Part shown: positions 15,990 to 25,047 of the stretch, piece after piece | How positions within the stretch are numbered: position 1 is the stretch's first letter | Layout of the letters: each line of letters begins with the position of its first letter | DNA from: Siphonobacter aquaeclarae | GTDB taxonomy: Bacteria; Bacteroidota; Bacteroidia; Cytophagales; Spirosomataceae | Assembly (NCBI RefSeq): GCF_900103285.1 | Contig: NZ_FNGS01000003.1 | Coordinates: 124,001-188,000, forward strand | Direction of reading: 5' to 3' | Length of the DNA: 64,000 bases | Notes under the pieces: model-generated | Databases searched by the model: none | Told to the model about the DNA's origin: nothing | The model's input: only the letters and a program-made list of their open reading frames with translations | Position numbers and translations under genes: made by a program

Positions 15990-16829
15990 TTACTCCAGAA
16001 TCCGCTGAATGTCATTTGCCTCCCGCAGGTACTCTTCGAAGCGCCCGTAGCTGTCGGACAGCATGAGTCCTTTGAACTTCAGCAGGTTATTGATGTATTC
16101 ATCGAGTACGTCGAGCAGGTTATCCCGGTTTTGCCGGAAAATCGGGATCCAGGTTTCGGGCGAGCTCTTGGCCAGCCGCACTGTACTTGCGAAGCCGGAA
16201 CTCGCCAGCTCGAAGATGCGATTGGCTTCCTTCTCTTTCTCCAGCGTGGTCAGCGCGAGGGCAAACGAGCAGATATGGGAAATGTGGGAGATGTAGGCCG
16301 TATGCACGTCATGCGAGACCGAATCGAACTCGGTAATCTTCATGCCGATGGCTTCGTAGAGGGCCTTGACGGTCGTTACAGCGTCTTCATCCGAATCGGC
16401 TGCGTCACAAATGACCGTGTATTTGTCTGTGAATAATCCGCGTATGGCTGCCTCCGGACCGGAGTACTCGGTTCCGGCCATGGGGTGCGTAGCGACAAAG
16501 CGCCCGCGCTTGGGGTGCTGGCGGACGGCTTCGACGATGGGCCGCTTCGTTGACCCGACATCGATGACGATTTGCCTGTCGACCCGGTCCAGTACGTAGG
16601 GAAGCAGCGTCAGCAGGGAGTCGACGGGCACCGCCAGGACGATGAGATCGGCCTGCTGGATGGCGTCATCGAGGAGGGCCATCTTATCGGCGAGTTGCAG
16701 TTCAAGGGCTTTGACGACGTGCTCGACCTGCTTGTCGACGCCGATGATGGTTTGGGCGAAGCCGGATTCCTTGAGAGCCAGGGAGAGCGAGCCTCCGATC
16801 AGGCCCATTCCGACGATGGATATGGTCAT
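15990..16829 (-). CDS. tyrA: Prephenate dehydrogenase
   Basis: A cytoplasmic NAD(P)-dependent enzyme of 279 residues that converts prephenate to 4-hydroxyphenylpyruvate, the committed step to tyrosine. The Rossmann motif is at the very start (MTISIVGMGLIGGSLSLALKE), followed by DLIVLAVPVDSL, DVGSTK and the prephenate-binding THPMAGTE with its His. The C-terminal helical dimerisation region is present; no ACT or chorismate mutase domain is fused. The ATG at 16829 is set by the Rossmann fold; upstream in-frame residues come from a repeat-like spacer. It is the second gene after an aminotransferase, under the tyrosine leader at 18142-18317. Confidence 0.95.
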   Translation of the reverse strand: MTISIVGMGLIGGSLSLALKESGFAQTIIGVDKQVEHVVKALELQLADKMALLDDAIQQADLIVLAVPVDSLLTLLPYVLDRVDRQIVIDVGSTKRPIVEAVRQHPKRGRFVATHPMAGTEYSGPEAAIRGLFTDKYTVICDAADSDEDAVTTVKALYEAIGMKITEFDSVSHDVHTAYISHISHICSFALALTTLEKEKEANRIFELASSGFASTVRLAKSSPETWIPIFRQNRDNLLDVLDEYINNLLKFKGLMLSDSYGRFEEYLREANDIQRILE

Positions 16830-16863
16830 GAGGGGGTATGAATCTATAGTGAATGTTTTTGGA

Positions 16864-16933: not shown

Positions 16934-18118
16934 CTACTGCTTATTGCTCAAAGCCTGCTGCCTAATCCTCCTCCCGGCTTCCTCAAAAACACGAACATCC
17001 GCGCAGAGCGAAATACGGATATAGCGGTCGCCCTGGGTACCGAAGATGCCTCCGGGTGTGATGAAGACATGCGCCTTGTGCAGGACTTCGTCCGACAACG
17101 CATAGCCGCTTTCCCAGGTATCCGGAATGCGGGCCCAGACAAACATACCCGTCTGCTGAGGATCATACCGGCAATCGAGCAGGTCCAGCAGTTCGAAAAC
17201 TGCTTTCTGCCGCTCCCGGTAGATCGCATTCAGTCCGGCGTACCAGGAAGGAGGGTTTGATAACGCCTGTATAGCAGCTTCCTGCATCGGAAGGAACATA
17301 CCCGAGTCCATATTCGACTTGAATTTCAGGACATTCGATAAAATCTCCGCGCCGCCGGCGAGTACCCCCATGCGCCAGCCGGCCATGTTATGGGACTTCG
17401 ACAGGGAATTAAGCTCAACAGCGACTTCCTTCGCACCCGGTACCGAAAGGATACTCAGGTACTCCTCGTTCAGGATAAAACTATAGGGATTGTCGTTGGC
17501 AATGAGGATGTTATGCTCTCTGCCAAATGCTACGAGCTCTTCGTAAAGGGCACGGGTCGCTTTCGCTCCGGTAGGCATATGCGGGTAATTGACCCACATG
17601 ACCCGGACGGCCGACAGGTCCGTTTGTGCCAGCGCTTTGAGGTCAGGCAGCCAGCCGGTTTCTTCCGACAGATCATAATTCCGCACTTCCGCACCCGCCA
17701 GCAGCGAAGCCGAGCGGTACGTCGGGTACCCCGGATTCGGAACAAGGGCTACGGTACCCGGCTCGAGGTAGCTCATCGCGATGTGCATGATTCCCTCTTT
17801 CGAGCCGATCAGGGGCAGTATTTCATTGACCGGGTTGAGATCCGCCCCGAAATACGTCCGGTACCAGTCTGCAAAAGCCTGACGCAATGCCGGTAATCCC
17901 ACGTAGCTTTGATATGCGTGGTTTTTCGGGTCTTGCGCAGAAACATGAAGGGCCTCGATGGTTTGGGGCGAAGGCGGCAGATCAGGGCTGCCGATGCCCA
18001 GGTTGACCACATCAAGTCCCCGGCTTTTCATCTCGGCGATCTCTTTCAGTTTCGTCGAGAAATAGTACTCCTGTACCAAATTAAGCCTTTTTGCCGGCTG
18101 GATACTGGACGATGCCAT
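16934..18118 (-). CDS. Class I/II PLP aminotransferase, probably aromatic (tyrosine) aminotransferase
   Basis: A cytoplasmic fold-type I aminotransferase of 394 residues. Motifs include VVNLGIGSPDLPPS near the N-terminus, NPGYPTYRSA, WVNYPHMPTGA, the NDNPYSF segment and the PLP-binding lysine in ELNSLSKSHNMAGWRMG. By sequence it resembles the broad LL-diaminopimelate/alanine aminotransferase group. Its position before tyrA and behind a leader ORF with six Tyr codons argues that it makes tyrosine (and perhaps phenylalanine) from the 2-oxo acids. The ATG at 18118 is preferred; an earlier one at 18184 would overlap the terminator hairpin. The last codons lie in a repeat. Confidence 0.88.
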   Translation of the reverse strand: MASSSIQPAKRLNLVQEYYFSTKLKEIAEMKSRGLDVVNLGIGSPDLPPSPQTIEALHVSAQDPKNHAYQSYVGLPALRQAFADWYRTYFGADLNPVNEILPLIGSKEGIMHIAMSYLEPGTVALVPNPGYPTYRSASLLAGAEVRNYDLSEETGWLPDLKALAQTDLSAVRVMWVNYPHMPTGAKATRALYEELVAFGREHNILIANDNPYSFILNEEYLSILSVPGAKEVAVELNSLSKSHNMAGWRMGVLAGGAEILSNVLKFKSNMDSGMFLPMQEAAIQALSNPPSWYAGLNAIYRERQKAVFELLDLLDCRYDPQQTGMFVWARIPDTWESGYALSDEVLHKAHVFITPGGIFGTQGDRYIRISLCADVRVFEEAGRRIRQQALSNKQ

Positions 18119-18141
18119 GACTGTATGAAGGGGATAAAAAC

Positions 18142-18168
18142 AAAAAAACCGAACCCAACAGGGCCGGT
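18142..18168 (-). terminator. Attenuator terminator hairpin of the tyrosine operon
   Basis: On the minus strand ACCGGCCC, loop TGTT and GGGTTCGGT form a GC-rich stem with one bulge and one G-T pair, followed by seven T. It lies between the Tyr-rich leader ORF and the aminotransferase, where a regulated terminator would be expected. Confidence 0.8.
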
Positions 18169-18209
18169 CGCGGAATGCACTCAATCAAAATGACAAATTC
18201 CTACCCGGC
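18163..18209 (-). promoter_or_regulatory. Candidate antiterminator hairpin of the tyrosine leader
   Basis: On the minus strand GCCGG (18209-18205) can pair with CCGGC (18167-18163), and GGAAT (18201-18197) with ATTCC (18176-18172), separated by a small internal loop. The CCGGC half is part of the 5' arm of the terminator, so the two structures exclude each other. The upstream GCCGG starts three bases after the leader stop codon, within reach of a ribosome paused at the stop. Confidence 0.7.
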
Positions 18210-18211
18210 TC

Positions 18212-18265
18212 CTACGACATTGCGTAGTAGTAATAATAAGAAGCCGTGTAGTTGCGAGATGTCAT
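18212..18265 (-). CDS. Tyrosine leader peptide (17 residues, six Tyr)
   Basis: The minus-strand frame from ATG at 18265 to TAG at 18212 encodes MTSRNYTASYYYYYAMS. Six of 17 residues are Tyr, with five consecutive codons TAT TAT TAC TAC TAC. It begins about 15 bases after the expected transcription start of a consensus promoter and ends just before paired antiterminator/terminator sequences. Such a leader is the sensor in ribosome-mediated attenuation: stalling at Tyr codons leaves the antiterminator free, while completion masks it. The downstream operon (aminotransferase, tyrA) makes tyrosine, matching the codons. The peptide itself needs no function. Confidence 0.85.
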   Translation of the reverse strand: MTSRNYTASYYYYYAMS

Positions 18266-18285
18266 GTTGCGTGATGGATGCGCTG

Positions 18286-18317
18286 CAAAAGTATCGGATA
18301 ATTCCGTATTCTTCAAA
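18286..18317 (-). promoter_or_regulatory. Promoter of the tyrosine operon
   Basis: On the minus strand a -33 TTTG (18317-18314) is separated by 20 bases from the -7 box TACTTTTG (18293-18286). This is a full match to the Bacteroidota promoter consensus. Initiation would fall near 18280, just ahead of the leader ORF. Confidence 0.8.
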
Positions 18318-18441
18318 ATTGTGTATCTTTTTTCATAACGAATTGAACATCAGTTCTGTACCGGTTCCATTAACAGAAAACCAGCCAACCAAACCTACAT
18401 CAGGCATCCCGAAATGCCCAACTCCTCCGTAACTTCACGGC

Positions 18442-20181
18442 ATGGAAGACAAGCAGTTTGTGGTTTCGGCCCGGAAATACCGGCCGGTGACATTCGATTC
18501 GGTGGTTGGGCAGTCGCACATTACGACGACCCTGAAGAACGCCATCCGGACGAATCACCTGGCGCAGGCGTTTCTGTTCTGCGGTCCGCGGGGAGTCGGA
18601 AAAACTACCTGCGCGCGGATTCTGGCCAAGACTATCAACTGCCTCCGCCTCGACGATCACGTCGAGCCCTGCGGAGAATGCGAAAACTGCGTAGCCTTCC
18701 AGAACAATGCCTCGCTCAACGTCCACGAGCTCGATGCGGCGTCGAACAACTCCGTCGAAGATATCCGGAACCTGATCGATCAGGTACGCTACCCGCCTCA
18801 GATGGGGAGCAAGAAGGTATACATCATTGACGAAGTGCACATGCTGTCGACGAGCGCCTTCAATGCTTTTCTGAAGACGCTGGAAGAGCCGCCGTCGTAC
18901 GCCATTTTTATTCTGGCAACGACGGAGAAGCACAAAATCCTGCCGACGATCCTCAGCCGCTGCCAGATTTTCGACTTCAACCGTATTCAGATCAAAGACA
19001 TGGCCGACCACCTCGGCCGTATCGCGAACAACGAAGGGATCCGGGCCGAGTACGAAGCGCTTGAGCTCATTGCGCAGAAAGCAGACGGCGGGCTTCGGGA
19101 TGCGCTATCAATGTTTGACCTCAATGTGACTTTTTCGAAAGACAACGCGCTGCACTACCGCGATGTCCTCGAAAACCTCCATATTCTCGACTACGATTAC
19201 TACTTCCGGATGACCGACGCGCTCCTCGACGGCAGCGTTCCGGCTACCTGGCTGCTTTTTGATGAAATTCTCCGGAAGGGCTTTGACGGCCACCAGTTTG
19301 TGGTGGGCCTCCTCGAACACCTCCGGAATCTGATGGTCTGCAAAGACCCCGCGACAGTCCAGCTTCTGCAGGTATCTGCTTCGGTGCAGAACCGCTACCT
19401 CGAGCAGTCGGCGCGGGCATCCCTTTCCTTCCTGCTGTCGGCCCTGAGCCTGGGCAGCCAGTGTGATATCAACTACAAGCAGGCCAAGCAACAACGCCTG
19501 CATGTGGAAATCGCGCTTTCGAAGATGGCGCACCTGCCGGCGGTGCTGAACCTGGCAAGTCTGCCGTCGGAGCCTGCGGCCGACGGCGAAAAAAAAAAGC
19601 CGGTTGAGTCCGTAAGCACACCTGCCGAACCGAAAGGCGCGGCGCCGGTCGCGGTTCCGCAGCCGGAAGCCCCCGCTGCACCTGTAACCCCGCCAGCTCC
19701 CCCCGTTCCGCGCAAACCGGCTGTCTCCTCCCGGCTGAAAGCGACGATCGACCTCAACGACTTTGCCGAGACGTCGGAGAAAGAAACGGAAGTAGCCGAG
19801 GTAGTCGTCCGGCAAAACCAGGAATACACCGAAGAAGAGCTGCACAAGGCCTGGCATGCGTTTGTAGAACAGCGCCGCCAGGGCGGCTCGATGAGCGAAG
19901 TTGTGATGCTGGACCGCGCTTTTTCGGTCGAAAAACACGTCATTCAGTTGGGAGTTGACAACCCCGTTCAGCTGGAGCTGCTCAACGACCTGAAGACGGA
20001 TCTGCTGACCTTTCTCCGCACAACCCTGAAAAACGGGCAGCTGCAGATACATGCCTTCGTGCTGGAACAACAGGTAAATCGCCTGCCGTACACCCAGTCG
20101 GAAAAATTCAGCTATATGCTCGAGAAAAACCCTGCTATTCAGGATCTTAAGAATTCCCTCGGGCTGGATTTCGACTGGTAA
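18442..20181 (+). CDS. dnaX: DNA polymerase III subunits gamma/tau
   Basis: Clamp-loader ATPase of 579 residues. Domain I has Walker A GPRGVGKTT (48-56), a four-cysteine zinc module (Cys67, Cys77, Cys80, Cys83), Walker B IIDEVHM (128-134) and the sensor region ATTEKHKILPTILSRCQ. Domains II-III extend to about 370. A proline/alanine-rich linker (about 370-440) precedes a C-terminal tau-like domain. A run of ten A at 19589-19598 encodes Glu-Lys-Lys-Lys at the start of the linker; a -1 shift meets a stop two codons later, so a short gamma-like form of about 388 residues is plausible. Confidence 0.96.
   Translation: MEDKQFVVSARKYRPVTFDSVVGQSHITTTLKNAIRTNHLAQAFLFCGPRGVGKTTCARILAKTINCLRLDDHVEPCGECENCVAFQNNASLNVHELDAASNNSVEDIRNLIDQVRYPPQMGSKKVYIIDEVHMLSTSAFNAFLKTLEEPPSYAIFILATTEKHKILPTILSRCQIFDFNRIQIKDMADHLGRIANNEGIRAEYEALELIAQKADGGLRDALSMFDLNVTFSKDNALHYRDVLENLHILDYDYYFRMTDALLDGSVPATWLLFDEILRKGFDGHQFVVGLLEHLRNLMVCKDPATVQLLQVSASVQNRYLEQSARASLSFLLSALSLGSQCDINYKQAKQQRLHVEIALSKMAHLPAVLNLASLPSEPAADGEKKKPVESVSTPAEPKGAAPVAVPQPEAPAAPVTPPAPPVPRKPAVSSRLKATIDLNDFAETSEKETEVAEVVVRQNQEYTEEELHKAWHAFVEQRRQGGSMSEVVMLDRAFSVEKHVIQLGVDNPVQLELLNDLKTDLLTFLRTTLKNGQLQIHAFVLEQQVNRLPYTQSEKFSYMLEKNPAIQDLKNSLGLDFDW
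19589..19598 (+). other. A10 slippage site in dnaX
   Basis: Ten consecutive adenines span codons GAA AAA AAA AAG. A -1 shift (or one extra transcribed A) leads to GCC GGT TGA, stopping at 19605-19607. A +1 shift reaches TAA after about five codons. The site is at residues 383-386, right after the conserved clamp-loader domains, where gamma forms end in other bacteria. Confidence 0.6.
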
Positions 20182-22631: not shown

Positions 22632-24236
22632 ATGGCAACCTATTTGCGTCATAACGCGTGGAACAACGGTGGTAACTTCACCAATCTCGACCTTTTCTGG
22701 TATGCGAAAGGCGTCGAAAAGATGATGAGCCGGGGATTGAACGACCCGGCCAGCTGGTGGTTCTACGCGGCCATTCACGGCGAATATGTCAACCCCAATA
22801 CTCCGTGGTACCCCCGGCCTCCCGCCTTTCCGGCCTGGGGGTATATCACGGCTCCGCCGCGTGTGCCGACCTCACCCCTGCCGGCGCCCGCCTCGCTGAG
22901 CCTCTACTGGAATCAGTGTCAGCATGGTAGCTGGTACTTCCTGCCCTGGCACCGCGGGTACCTGATGGCGCTCGAAGTACAGCTTCGGACGGATATTGTC
23001 AGCCTAGGTGGCCCGTCGACATGGGCACTGCCTTACTGGGATTATTTCGGAGGAACGAACGGCAATCAGTACCAGATGCCGCCGGCATTTGCCGCGAGAA
23101 CGCTGCCCGACGGAAGCCTCAACGCGCTGTATGTCTCGATGCGGTACGGTCCGGATGGTAACCGGAATATTTACGTACCCACTCCGGCCGGCGCCGCTGC
23201 TCACCCCGGAGATCCCAACTTTCAGTATGGTATCGTGACGAAAGATGCCCTGAAGAATAATCTTTTTACCGGCTCTAATGCCGTGACGCCGCCTCCCGGT
23301 TTCGGTGGCCCTGAAACGGGCTTCTCGCACTCGGGACGGGCACATGGAAATTTCGAAAGCAATCCCCACGACCTCGTACACGTGTATGTAGGCGGGCAGG
23401 TTTCGGACACCGACTACGGTCTTATGGCTGACCCCGGTACCGCGGCGCTGGACCCGATATTCTACCTCCACCACTGCAATATCGATCGGCTGTGGGGCGT
23501 CTGGAATGCCAGCGGCAATGCCAACCCGACAAGCGCCGCCTGGCTCAACGGCCCCGCGACACGCAAATTTGCCATGCCAACCCCCAACGGGCAGCCGTGG
23601 TACTACACGCCGGCGCAGGTGCAAAACCTCAGCAACCTCAATTATTCGTATCAGGAGCTTCAGGCTCAGCCGATTCCGCATGCGCCGATCGTGGCAAAAC
23701 GCCTGGAAATGCTCGGCGCAACCGAAGCGACCGCCAAAGCCACCAGCGAAGCCGCCACGACGGCAGTACCCAAGCAGCCCGAACTGCTGGGCGCCAGCGC
23801 CGGGCCGCTCACGCTGACCGGCAAAGGCGCGCATACTACCGTGAAGCTCGACGCCACCGAACGGCAGCATACCCTGAAGAGCTTCGCGCTGGCCGCCGAT
23901 CACCTGCCGGATAAGGCGTTTCTGAAGCTGGAAAACGTCAGGGGAACGTTCGATGCCACAGCCCTGAGCATCTACGTGCCTACCACGGGTGGAAAGGAAC
24001 TCCTCGCAGGTACCGTCGGACTATTTGGCCTGCGGCGCGCGAGCGTTCCCGACGGCGAGCATGCCGGGGAAGGGCTCACGTTCATCCTCGATATCACACC
24101 CATTATCGACCAGCTGCACCTGTCCAACGGGCTGTCGGGCGATACGATACCGGTTGATATCGTCCCGAACCGTCCTTTACCGGAAAATACCGAAATTCAG
24201 GTAGGCCGCGTCAGCGTTTACCGACAGGAGTTCTGA
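22632..24236 (+). CDS. Tyrosinase / polyphenol oxidase-like copper protein
   Basis: A type-3 copper oxidase of 534 residues, predicted to hydroxylate phenols and oxidise catechols to quinones. CuA ligands are visible as His49 (AIHGEY), His98 and His107 (QCQHGSWYFLPWHRGY). CuB has His246 and His250 (NPHDLVHVYVG) and His280/281 (DPIFYLHHCNIDRLW). No signal peptide is seen, so it is either cytoplasmic or exported by a non-standard route. The C-terminal domain (about 395-534, LENVRGTFDATALSIYV ... GLFGLRRASVP) resembles the C-terminal domain of plant polyphenol oxidases. It is first in a tight operon with a DUF2182 membrane protein and an orphan copy of that C-terminal domain. Confidence 0.92.
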   Translation: MATYLRHNAWNNGGNFTNLDLFWYAKGVEKMMSRGLNDPASWWFYAAIHGEYVNPNTPWYPRPPAFPAWGYITAPPRVPTSPLPAPASLSLYWNQCQHGSWYFLPWHRGYLMALEVQLRTDIVSLGGPSTWALPYWDYFGGTNGNQYQMPPAFAARTLPDGSLNALYVSMRYGPDGNRNIYVPTPAGAAAHPGDPNFQYGIVTKDALKNNLFTGSNAVTPPPGFGGPETGFSHSGRAHGNFESNPHDLVHVYVGGQVSDTDYGLMADPGTAALDPIFYLHHCNIDRLWGVWNASGNANPTSAAWLNGPATRKFAMPTPNGQPWYYTPAQVQNLSNLNYSYQELQAQPIPHAPIVAKRLEMLGATEATAKATSEAATTAVPKQPELLGASAGPLTLTGKGAHTTVKLDATERQHTLKSFALAADHLPDKAFLKLENVRGTFDATALSIYVPTTGGKELLAGTVGLFGLRRASVPDGEHAGEGLTFILDITPIIDQLHLSNGLSGDTIPVDIVPNRPLPENTEIQVGRVSVYRQEF

Positions 24237-24237
24237 T

Positions 24238-25047
24238 ATGGTCTACACTACCCGGGAATACACGCAACTACAGAAAGCCGGCCTTGCCGTTAGTCTGGCC
24301 GCATGGGGTATCCTCCTGCTGCGGCCGGCGCAGGCTGCTTCGTGGTGCTGCGGGGGAGATTGCCTGACGCCTGTACAGACTGTGCTGGCTTGGGACCCGC
24401 CGTTTTCCCTGGTCGTCCGGATGGTAATGGCTTCATACGCGCCCGGTTCCCTTGCCGGGGACTGGGCGCTGATGCTGCCTGCGATGATGACGCCGACGCT
24501 CATTCCGCCGTTGTATCACATCAGGATCAGTAGCTTTGCGCGAAGGAGGGGGCGCTCAACCATTCTCTTTGCGATCGGCTATGGTCTTGTCTGGATGGCC
24601 GCCGGGGCTGTATTGCTCCTGCCGGGATTACTGACGCGGGCACTTATGCCCCAATCGTGGCTACCGGCTTTGTGCGCGGCGGCGGTTGCAGTGGTCTGGC
24701 AGGCGACTCCTGTCAAGCAGCGGAGTCTCAACCGCGCCCACCAGCACGATTCACTCGCGGCGTTCGGAACCGCGGCAGACAGGGATGCGTTCAAACTGGG
24801 AATCGATCACGGGCGCTGGTGCGTGGTCTCCTGCTGGGCGGCGATGCTCGTTCCGACGCTGCTCCCGCACGGGCACATGGCCGGAATGCTGGCCGTTGGC
24901 CTGCTGATGTTTTGCGAGCGGCTTGATCCGCCTGCCATACCTGCGTGGCGCCTGCGTGGATTCCGGACTGTGTTCCGGTATGTCGTTCTTCAATGGAAAA
25001 ATGCCCGGATACCTGCGGCGCAAAACGATATGACTCAGGATGGATGA
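24238..25047 (+). CDS. DUF2182 polytopic membrane protein
   Basis: An integral membrane protein of 269 residues with about six hydrophobic helices. The DUF2182 signature is visible as GDWALMLPAMMTPTLIPP, with a later HGRWCVVSCWAAMLVP segment; family members are described as predicted metal-binding membrane proteins. A cysteine motif (SWCCGGDC, about 36-43) and several His/Met residues could bind copper. It starts one base after the tyrosinase stop and overlaps the next gene by 8 bases, so all three are co-translated. A role in supplying copper to the tyrosinase or anchoring it is inference from context. Confidence 0.85.
   Translation: MVYTTREYTQLQKAGLAVSLAAWGILLLRPAQAASWCCGGDCLTPVQTVLAWDPPFSLVVRMVMASYAPGSLAGDWALMLPAMMTPTLIPPLYHIRISSFARRRGRSTILFAIGYGLVWMAAGAVLLLPGLLTRALMPQSWLPALCAAAVAVVWQATPVKQRSLNRAHQHDSLAAFGTAADRDAFKLGIDHGRWCVVSCWAAMLVPTLLPHGHMAGMLAVGLLMFCERLDPPAIPAWRLRGFRTVFRYVVLQWKNARIPAAQNDMTQDG

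Follow-up and report, generated by a model that had tools for sequence, protein, structure and literature searches.

A short open reading frame (ORF) with six tyrosine codons precedes an aminotransferase-tyrA operon of Siphonobacter aquaeclarae and very probably forms part of a ribosome-mediated transcription attenuator of the trp/his/phe type, which would sense charged tRNA-Tyr and control this operon. The window, by which we mean the whole 64,000-nucleotide stretch analysed, is positions 124,001-188,000 of the forward strand of contig NZ_FNGS01000003.1 (GCF_900103285.1), and window coordinates are used throughout. The leader region, on the minus strand, is flanked by a divergent dnaX-like gene (18442-20181) and by the gene for a class I aminotransferase. 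Read in the direction of the leader transcript, the order is TTTTG, TACTTTTG, the leader ORF, region 2, the terminator, seven T and the aminotransferase start at 18118. The features are:

18314-18318 and 18286-18293, minus strand: Bacteroidota-type promoter read from the sequence, TTTTG and, after a 20-nt spacer, TACTTTTG, which corresponds to TAnnTTTG
18212-18265, minus strand: leader ORF, MTSRNYTASYYYYYAMS-stop, 17 codons with six Tyr, seen in the sequence, with a Tyr-rich ORF in 30 of 30 loci
18240-18251, minus strand: region 1, the 5' arm of the protector hairpin (CTACACGGCTTC), pairing with the bases after the stop at -16.1 kcal/mol and present in the MFE structure
18224-18238, minus strand: run of five Tyr codons (TATTATTACTACTAC), the putative stall site and the sole TAYx5 of the genome
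18197-18211, minus strand: region 2 (GAGCCGGGTAGGAAT), immediately past the leader stop, able to pair with either region 1 or region 3
18163-18176, minus strand: region 3 (ATTCCGCGACCGGC), the antiterminator 3' arm, which includes part of the terminator 5' arm; antiterminator -17.8 kcal/mol
18142-18168, minus strand: intrinsic terminator, stem ACCGGCCC/GGGTTCGGT (-10.7 kcal/mol) plus seven T, from sequence and folding
16934-18118, minus strand: class I aminotransferase of 394 aa, first gene of the operon (PF00155; best NCBIfam matches below cut-off)
15990-16850, minus strand: tyrA, prephenate dehydrogenase, second gene (NF006307 above cut-off; PF02153 and PF20463)

The terminator hairpin, ACCGGCCC-TGTT-GGGTTCGGT, occupies 18148-18168, with the seven T at 18142-18148, and ends 23 nt upstream of the aminotransferase-tyrA operon. 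The antiterminator hairpin starts at 18211, the first base past the stop codon (18212-18214), and runs into the terminator 5' arm. An earlier note, made from the sequence alone, had described the 17-codon ORF with six Tyr codons, the terminator hairpin with seven T and an alternative hairpin that uses the terminator 5' arm and begins just past the leader stop, and all three are present as listed above; the protector is a third hairpin, absent from that note. Its assignment of a prephenate dehydrogenase to the operon also holds, the tyrA product scoring 347 bits against NF006307 (NCBIfam cut-off 295). A few kb from the tyrosine operon, the plus strand encodes a tyrosinase-domain protein (PF00264 and DUF7868, 22632-24236) and, directly after it, a PpoB2 copper-chaperone-like protein (24238-25047).

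The ORF, the identity of its codons and the content of the operon are visible in the sequence itself, and with 6 of 17 codons for Tyr in front of an operon carrying tyrA the leader has the regulated codons of a ribosome-mediated attenuator. The TAYx5 pattern (TAYTAYTAYTAYTAY) occurs once in the 6,189,941-base (6.19 Mb) genome, in this leader; the reversed pattern, used as a control, also occurs once. When an ORF with Tyr at 4 or more of 9 residues was searched for together with a terminator, this leader was the single match on both strands of the window. To look at relatives, we searched for the aminotransferase family (E <= 1e-110), found it in 187 of 222 genomes, and examined what lies upstream of the gene in the window, in its 29 best relatives and in another 20 loci spread across genera. 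A short upstream ORF with at least five Tyr was present at the window and at all 29 relatives with the most similar aminotransferase (30/30 loci). Adding seven loci preselected as carriers (L055, L060-L065) gave a set of 37, in all of which an ORF and a terminator lay within 300 nt, compared with none of 3700 dinucleotide shuffles (100 per locus); without the terminator requirement, 40 of the 3700 shuffles contained the ORF alone. The leader peptides themselves diverge (MTSRNYTASYYYYYAMS, MNFKSATYYAGYYYAGYYVCA, MNSHAINYTTGYYYAGYYNAA), and mainly the Tyr content is kept. In the Tyr run of 17 aligned loci, letters departing from the majority numbered 0 at the first codon position, 2 at the second and 8 at the third (82 cells each), those at the third position being all T or C; one codon was replaced in two rows, and the run was one codon shorter in three rows.

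From these elements we infer a transcription start, translation of the leader, stalling and a response to tyrosine, which would work together as follows. With plenty of Tyr-tRNA, the ribosome would pass the Tyr run, reach the stop at 18212-18214 and cover region 2, so that regions 3 and 4 would pair as the terminator. With scarce Tyr-tRNA, it would stall in the Tyr run and cover region 1, leaving region 2 free; the 2:3 helix would then form, take the terminator 5' arm and let the polymerase enter the operon. Without translation, 1:2 and 3:4 would both pair and transcription would stop. The leader has an intrinsic terminator before the first gene, a protector overlapping the leader codons and, in the window, an antiterminator that shares the terminator 5' arm and, in the simulation described below, would be freed by a ribosome at the Tyr codons.

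Comparison between relatives argues for these three helices, all of which covary to some extent. The whole-leader fold was modestly better than that of shuffled sequences (z -1.91, 8 of 200 as good). The helices were counted on a 17-row alignment, and since RNAalifold on the whole alignment gave the terminator alone, the protector and the antiterminator were specified as named helices on a single relative (L015) and tested in that form, a choice that somewhat favours both. The antiterminator was paired in 87.7% of cells in the 17 loci, against 28-40% when slid, and its covariation score was 0.256 against 0.124 in shuffles; 67 of 500 shuffles had at least as many of its pairs altered on both sides. 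The terminator was paired in 94.8% of cells, with 5 of 8 pairs changed on both sides. The protector was the weakest of the three (81.2% of cells paired, 2 of 9 pairs changed on both sides), and in the window it uses a register shifted relative to the helix of the relatives. In the number of further pair types the helices did not beat the shuffles: 482 of 500 shuffles scored at least as well as the antiterminator, and 88 of 500 at least as well as the protector and terminator together. Column 134 pairs with column 74 (U-A in 12 rows, C-G in 5) and also with column 147 (A-U in 12, G-U in 4, G-C in 1), so region 3 keeps both partners. The Tyr-codon attenuator that the earlier note had placed before this operon thus gains support from leader conservation and covariation, its tyrosine response being a prediction; of the two checks the note had proposed in relatives, Tyr-rich ORFs were found in 30 of 30 loci, window included, and with a terminator in 37 of 37, and for covarying stems the antiterminator and terminator covary in the 17 loci, the protector more weakly.

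The same results bear on a very unlikely alternative, namely that translation of the leader ORF serves coupling or reinitiation at the aminotransferase gene, with an incidental Tyr run and a hairpin that is no more than an ordinary terminator. Leader genes have indeed been proposed to boost the translation of downstream genes (PMC4833913), but the peaks in that report lie at 10-14 bp, far from the 93 nt between the leader stop and the aminotransferase start. Moreover, coupling is at odds with the covariation of mutually exclusive helices, with the retention of Tyr under codon drift that is mostly synonymous, and with a codon identity that tracks operon content (see below). A second alternative keeps the attenuator but has the ribosome stalled by the growing peptide itself, or by poly-Tyr being decoded slowly, in place of tRNA charging. 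Five identical aromatic residues in a row could alone slow translation, but the leader peptides diverge, with mainly the Tyr content kept, and Phe joins Tyr when the operon includes pheA, which makes this reading very improbable. We give still less credit, to the point of considering it extremely improbable, to a T-box or other known RNA element that would read tRNA-Tyr or a metabolite directly, with the ORF as a by-product. Tyrosine genes are under T-box control in other species (PMC1262725), but Rfam at its gathering thresholds matched just a tRNA in the window, and a permissive scan of 18000-18450 gave a single sub-threshold sRNA match (15 bits, threshold 52); no T-box family matched in the window at gathering thresholds or in 18000-18450 at E <= 1.

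For the ribosome-mediated attenuator, an equilibrium simulation was run with the ribosome edge assumed to lie 13 nt downstream of where the A-site codon starts. In the window, P(terminator) was 0.87 without a ribosome, 0.92 with a ribosome at the stop and 0.00-0.20 whichever of the six Tyr codons the ribosome occupied. A clear switch, taken as a stalled mean of at most 0.6 with a usable stop value, was obtained in 12 of the 37 leaders, window included. The stalled mean was below the stop value in 34 of 37, many of the differences being tiny; L030 and L034 had no usable stop value since the script misplaced the terminator, and L055 behaved in the opposite way, its stalled mean not being below the stop value. 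In the Arcicella and Pseudarcicella leaders P(terminator) was high in every simulated state. Leaders lacking a clear equilibrium switch would have to pair 2:3 while region 4 has yet to be transcribed, as classical attenuators do.

The promoter called a full consensus promoter in the earlier note is present in the Bacteroidota sense (TTTG / TAnnTTTG); read as a sigma-70 promoter the claim fails, a scan of 17900-18500 having given no such site. From this box, transcription is predicted to start near 18281. TAnnTTTG was found within 60 nt upstream of the leader ATG in 36 of the 37 loci, and in 24 of them (L013-L031, L033, L034, L061-L063) it stands 4-5 nt from it. Five loci have it at 10 nt, each with another ATG in frame at 4 nt, and five more at 18 nt; the distance is 20 nt in the window and 24 nt in L055. 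Leaders recovered with the covariance model described below had the box 4-5 nt before the ATG in 14 of 21 cases, among them many of L085-L109. Before pheA, the first or single Phe/Tyr leaders had TAnnTTTG in 35 of 54 cases, at 14-38 nt, and the second leaders in none of 24. Since the box is placed at -12 to -5 in PMC9723704, a 4-nt spacing puts the leader AUG at +1, and many Tyr leader transcripts, the window's own excepted, are therefore predicted to be leaderless or near-leaderless; leaderless mRNAs make up 5.5% in the same report.

Synteny argues that the first gene of the operon encodes an aromatic aminotransferase, since in many Bacteroidota the gene sits between pheA and tyrA, and the enzyme is probably aromatic on this basis. 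The part of the earlier note that predicted an aromatic enzyme stands to that extent; against it, the best NCBIfam models are LL-diaminopimelate aminotransferases, with scores below their cut-offs. Solved relatives are named unspecifically or in mixed fashion, one as aromatic. We looked for a separate diaminopimelate aminotransferase, TIGR03542, that would relieve the enzyme of a lysine role, and none scored above cut-off in the 11 genomes searched, so the enzyme may have such a role.

Named relatives carrying the leader include Pseudarcicella hirudinis, Flectobacillus, Arcicella rosea, Sandaracinomonas limnophila and Aquirufa antheringensis. In the 20 further family loci it was found once, in L055 (65% identity). 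The other 19 (50-53% identity) had no convincing leader, two of them carrying longer ORFs with 4 Tyr, and tyrA was just downstream in 15 of these 19, which we count against the attenuator. A search of the order added 23 loci, in which the leader lay directly before the aminotransferase in L060-L065 and was absent in 17; at 11 of these 17, pheA is upstream and Phe/Tyr leaders precede pheA. Among the best 80 named loci listed, 22 had a Tyr-rich ORF directly before the aminotransferase. L057-L059 (family f5) encode aminotransferases 69-71% identical to that of the window, and neither a leader nor an adjacent tyrA was found there. When 142 aminotransferases were put on a tree and labelled by hand, the Tyr-only label, given to 47 rows, required two changes, one of them forced. 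The Tyr-only state before the aminotransferase thus probably has one origin, so that the Tyr-only loci are not independent of each other.

The codon content of the leaders follows the content of the operons, as judged from gene order in 153 loci, 56 with pheA upstream of the aminotransferase and 97 without detected pheA (11 of the 97 being named records of genomes already in the set). Phe/Tyr-rich leaders were present in 54 of the 56 loci with pheA, and 26 of these 54 had two leader-terminator units in tandem, by a script count partly checked by eye. By the same criteria, a leader was absent in 39 of the 97 loci without detected pheA. Of the 64 distinct leaders that belong to pheA units, 63 had at least two Phe codons, against 5 of the 33 distinct leaders of units without pheA, and three of those five are not true leaders (L016, a neighbouring ORF; L017, an upstream extension of a Tyr leader; L038, a chance ORF). 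Without pheA, then, the codons are almost purely Tyr, the exceptions being L055 and L201, real leaders that keep Phe codons where no pheA was found. In L201 the mixed Phe/Tyr leader precedes aminotransferase-tyrA on a 3.6 kb contig without pheA. Tandem attenuators before pheA-aminotransferase-tyrA are seen in L169 (Chitinophaga qingshengii), L067, L078 and others; in L169 the first leader has Phe, Tyr and Trp, and the second Phe and Tyr.

Similar leaders stand before genes of other kinds. At E <= 0.01, a covariance model built on the leader matched 81 of 390 genomes in the order and 49 of 395 in the phylum, every match of the phylum search except the window's own being at E 3e-5 or worse. We inspected 28 loci, 25 from the order and three from the phylum search (L110-L112); seven downstream proteins were checked with HMM families and the rest named by eye from their likeness to these. 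In 15 of the 28, Tyr-rich leaders precede phenylalanine 4-hydroxylase (L085-L095, L097, L098, L102, L103), and phenylalanine 4-monooxygenase NF008877 was above cut-off in the three proteins checked. Some of these leaders mix His codons among the Tyr, as in MLKNKAYHYHYYHNN, so Tyr is not the sole candidate signal there. Four loci, from another family of the order, have mixed Phe/Tyr leaders before DAHP synthase/chorismate mutase (L096, L099, L108, L109), two of the DAHP synthases being identified by Pfam, with a chorismate mutase domain. Single cases were a Tyr-rich leader, MNNLMQSYYTYAYYYLIVRAGDCYIIK, before tyrS (L100, G353, 1501-1647; TIGR00234 above cut-off), a leader before tyrA (NF006307 above cut-off) and, judged by eye, an Ile-rich frame, ATTATTATCACTATTACTATTATTGCAATT, before a threonine dehydratase-like gene (L110, G768, 1501-1638). 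The remaining six matches (L101, L104-L107, L112) showed no such leader on inspection.

In the 15 hydroxylase leaders, every cell of the terminator was paired (100%) and 5 of its 9 pairs had changes on both sides, while the antiterminator was paired in 90.8%, against 71.7% when slid by one column; covariation of this antiterminator was weaker, 20 of 500 shuffles being as high. The hydroxylase family PF00351 matched in 89 of 148 genomes of the order, and a Tyr-rich leader with terminator was present at 9 of 50 inspected PF00351 loci (L298, L299, L313, L315, L317, L322, L324, L329, L341), a tenth flagged locus, L316, being left out as chance. The hydroxylase locus of the window's own genome (L326) has no Tyr-rich leader. 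The hydroxylase leaders occur in several families of the order, and they suggest a role for phenylalanine hydroxylase in making tyrosine in several Cytophagales.

Other amino-acid genes served as controls. At trpE, a short upstream ORF with WW or WWW was present in 14 of 14 of the same genomes and the terminator test was also passed in 10, the window's genome included; its trpE (L365, contig C18) has the Trp leader MIISFAQAWWWQPESSVEQPCYA with a strong terminator, and leader-peptide attenuation therefore seems to be in use in this genome. No His leader was found at hisG in 14 genomes. Within the window's family, none of 28 had an aromatic leader at pheA, and no convincing leader was seen at DAHP synthase in the 20 genomes inspected out of 28, three weak ORFs (L277, L278, L287) appearing at a looser setting. 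Both results count against the attenuator; they also mean that in this family the Tyr leader marks aminotransferase-tyrA and not the neighbouring steps examined.

The enterobacterial trp, his and pheA leaders are ribosome-mediated leader-peptide attenuators, and the window's leader resembles them in its short ORF with the regulated codons and in the helices 1:2, 2:3 and 3:4. Unlike them, it would sense the Tyr codon and has a promoter of the Bacteroidota type, and its counterparts in many relatives have their AUG on the predicted transcription start or 1 nt away from it. The nearest described case that we found is aroR of Corynebacterium glutamicum, located before aroF, which is also an aromatic-codon leader peptide at an aromatic pathway gene. 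However, aroR has Phe-Tyr-Phe and is reported to respond to Phe limitation, Tyr availability being without effect (PMC11802643), whereas Tyr is the only repeated aromatic codon in the window's leader. In the same phylum, a putative attenuator taken from website predictions precedes the related operon pheA-hisHb-aroA-aroQ-tyrA of Bacteroides thetaiotaomicron (PMC1173090, Table 7), likewise as a predicted terminator and antiterminator; its gene order differs from that of the window, the word 'leader' does not occur in the accessible text of that paper, and no codon content was seen in it. Flavobacterium psychrophilum, also of this phylum, gave 'strong clues' that leader peptides precede amino-acid operons (PMC9723704), in a main text that, in its accessible part, never names 'tyrosine'. 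Attenuation by ribosomes was inferred from codon content and terminators, as here, for the motifs uORFC-8-2 (cysS) and uORFC-13-1 (aroF, Phe) of alphaproteobacteria and Acholeplasma (PMC8632094), which sense Cys and Phe, respectively, unlike the window's Tyr leader. No description of a Tyr-only leader attenuator was found in the mostly open-access literature searched, nor was such a leader found in the accessible parts of PMC4833913, PMC9723704, PMC7366714, PMC1262725, PMC1173090, PMC11802643 and PMC8632094; priority for a tyrosine-only attenuator is thus not firmly claimed.

Taken across the phylum, it seems rather likely that Bacteroidota steer much of their tyrosine supply through aromatic leader peptides whose codons track the downstream genes: Phe and Tyr, often in tandem, at pheA-aminotransferase-tyrA; Tyr alone once pheA is gone; Tyr, in some cases with His, at phenylalanine 4-hydroxylase; and Tyr at tyrS, many of the Cytophagales Tyr leaders being read leaderless or near-leaderless. 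If this is true, phenylalanine 4-hydroxylase would be a biosynthetic source of tyrosine in the genomes with a Tyr leader before its gene. The window's leader would be a tyrosine-sensing ribosome-mediated attenuator, a form of a classic switch for which no tyrosine-only case was found in the literature searched. The phylum offers a natural experiment, in which leader codons shift with operon content, and the leaders could serve as a sequence-based guide to the physiological roles of the genes downstream of them.
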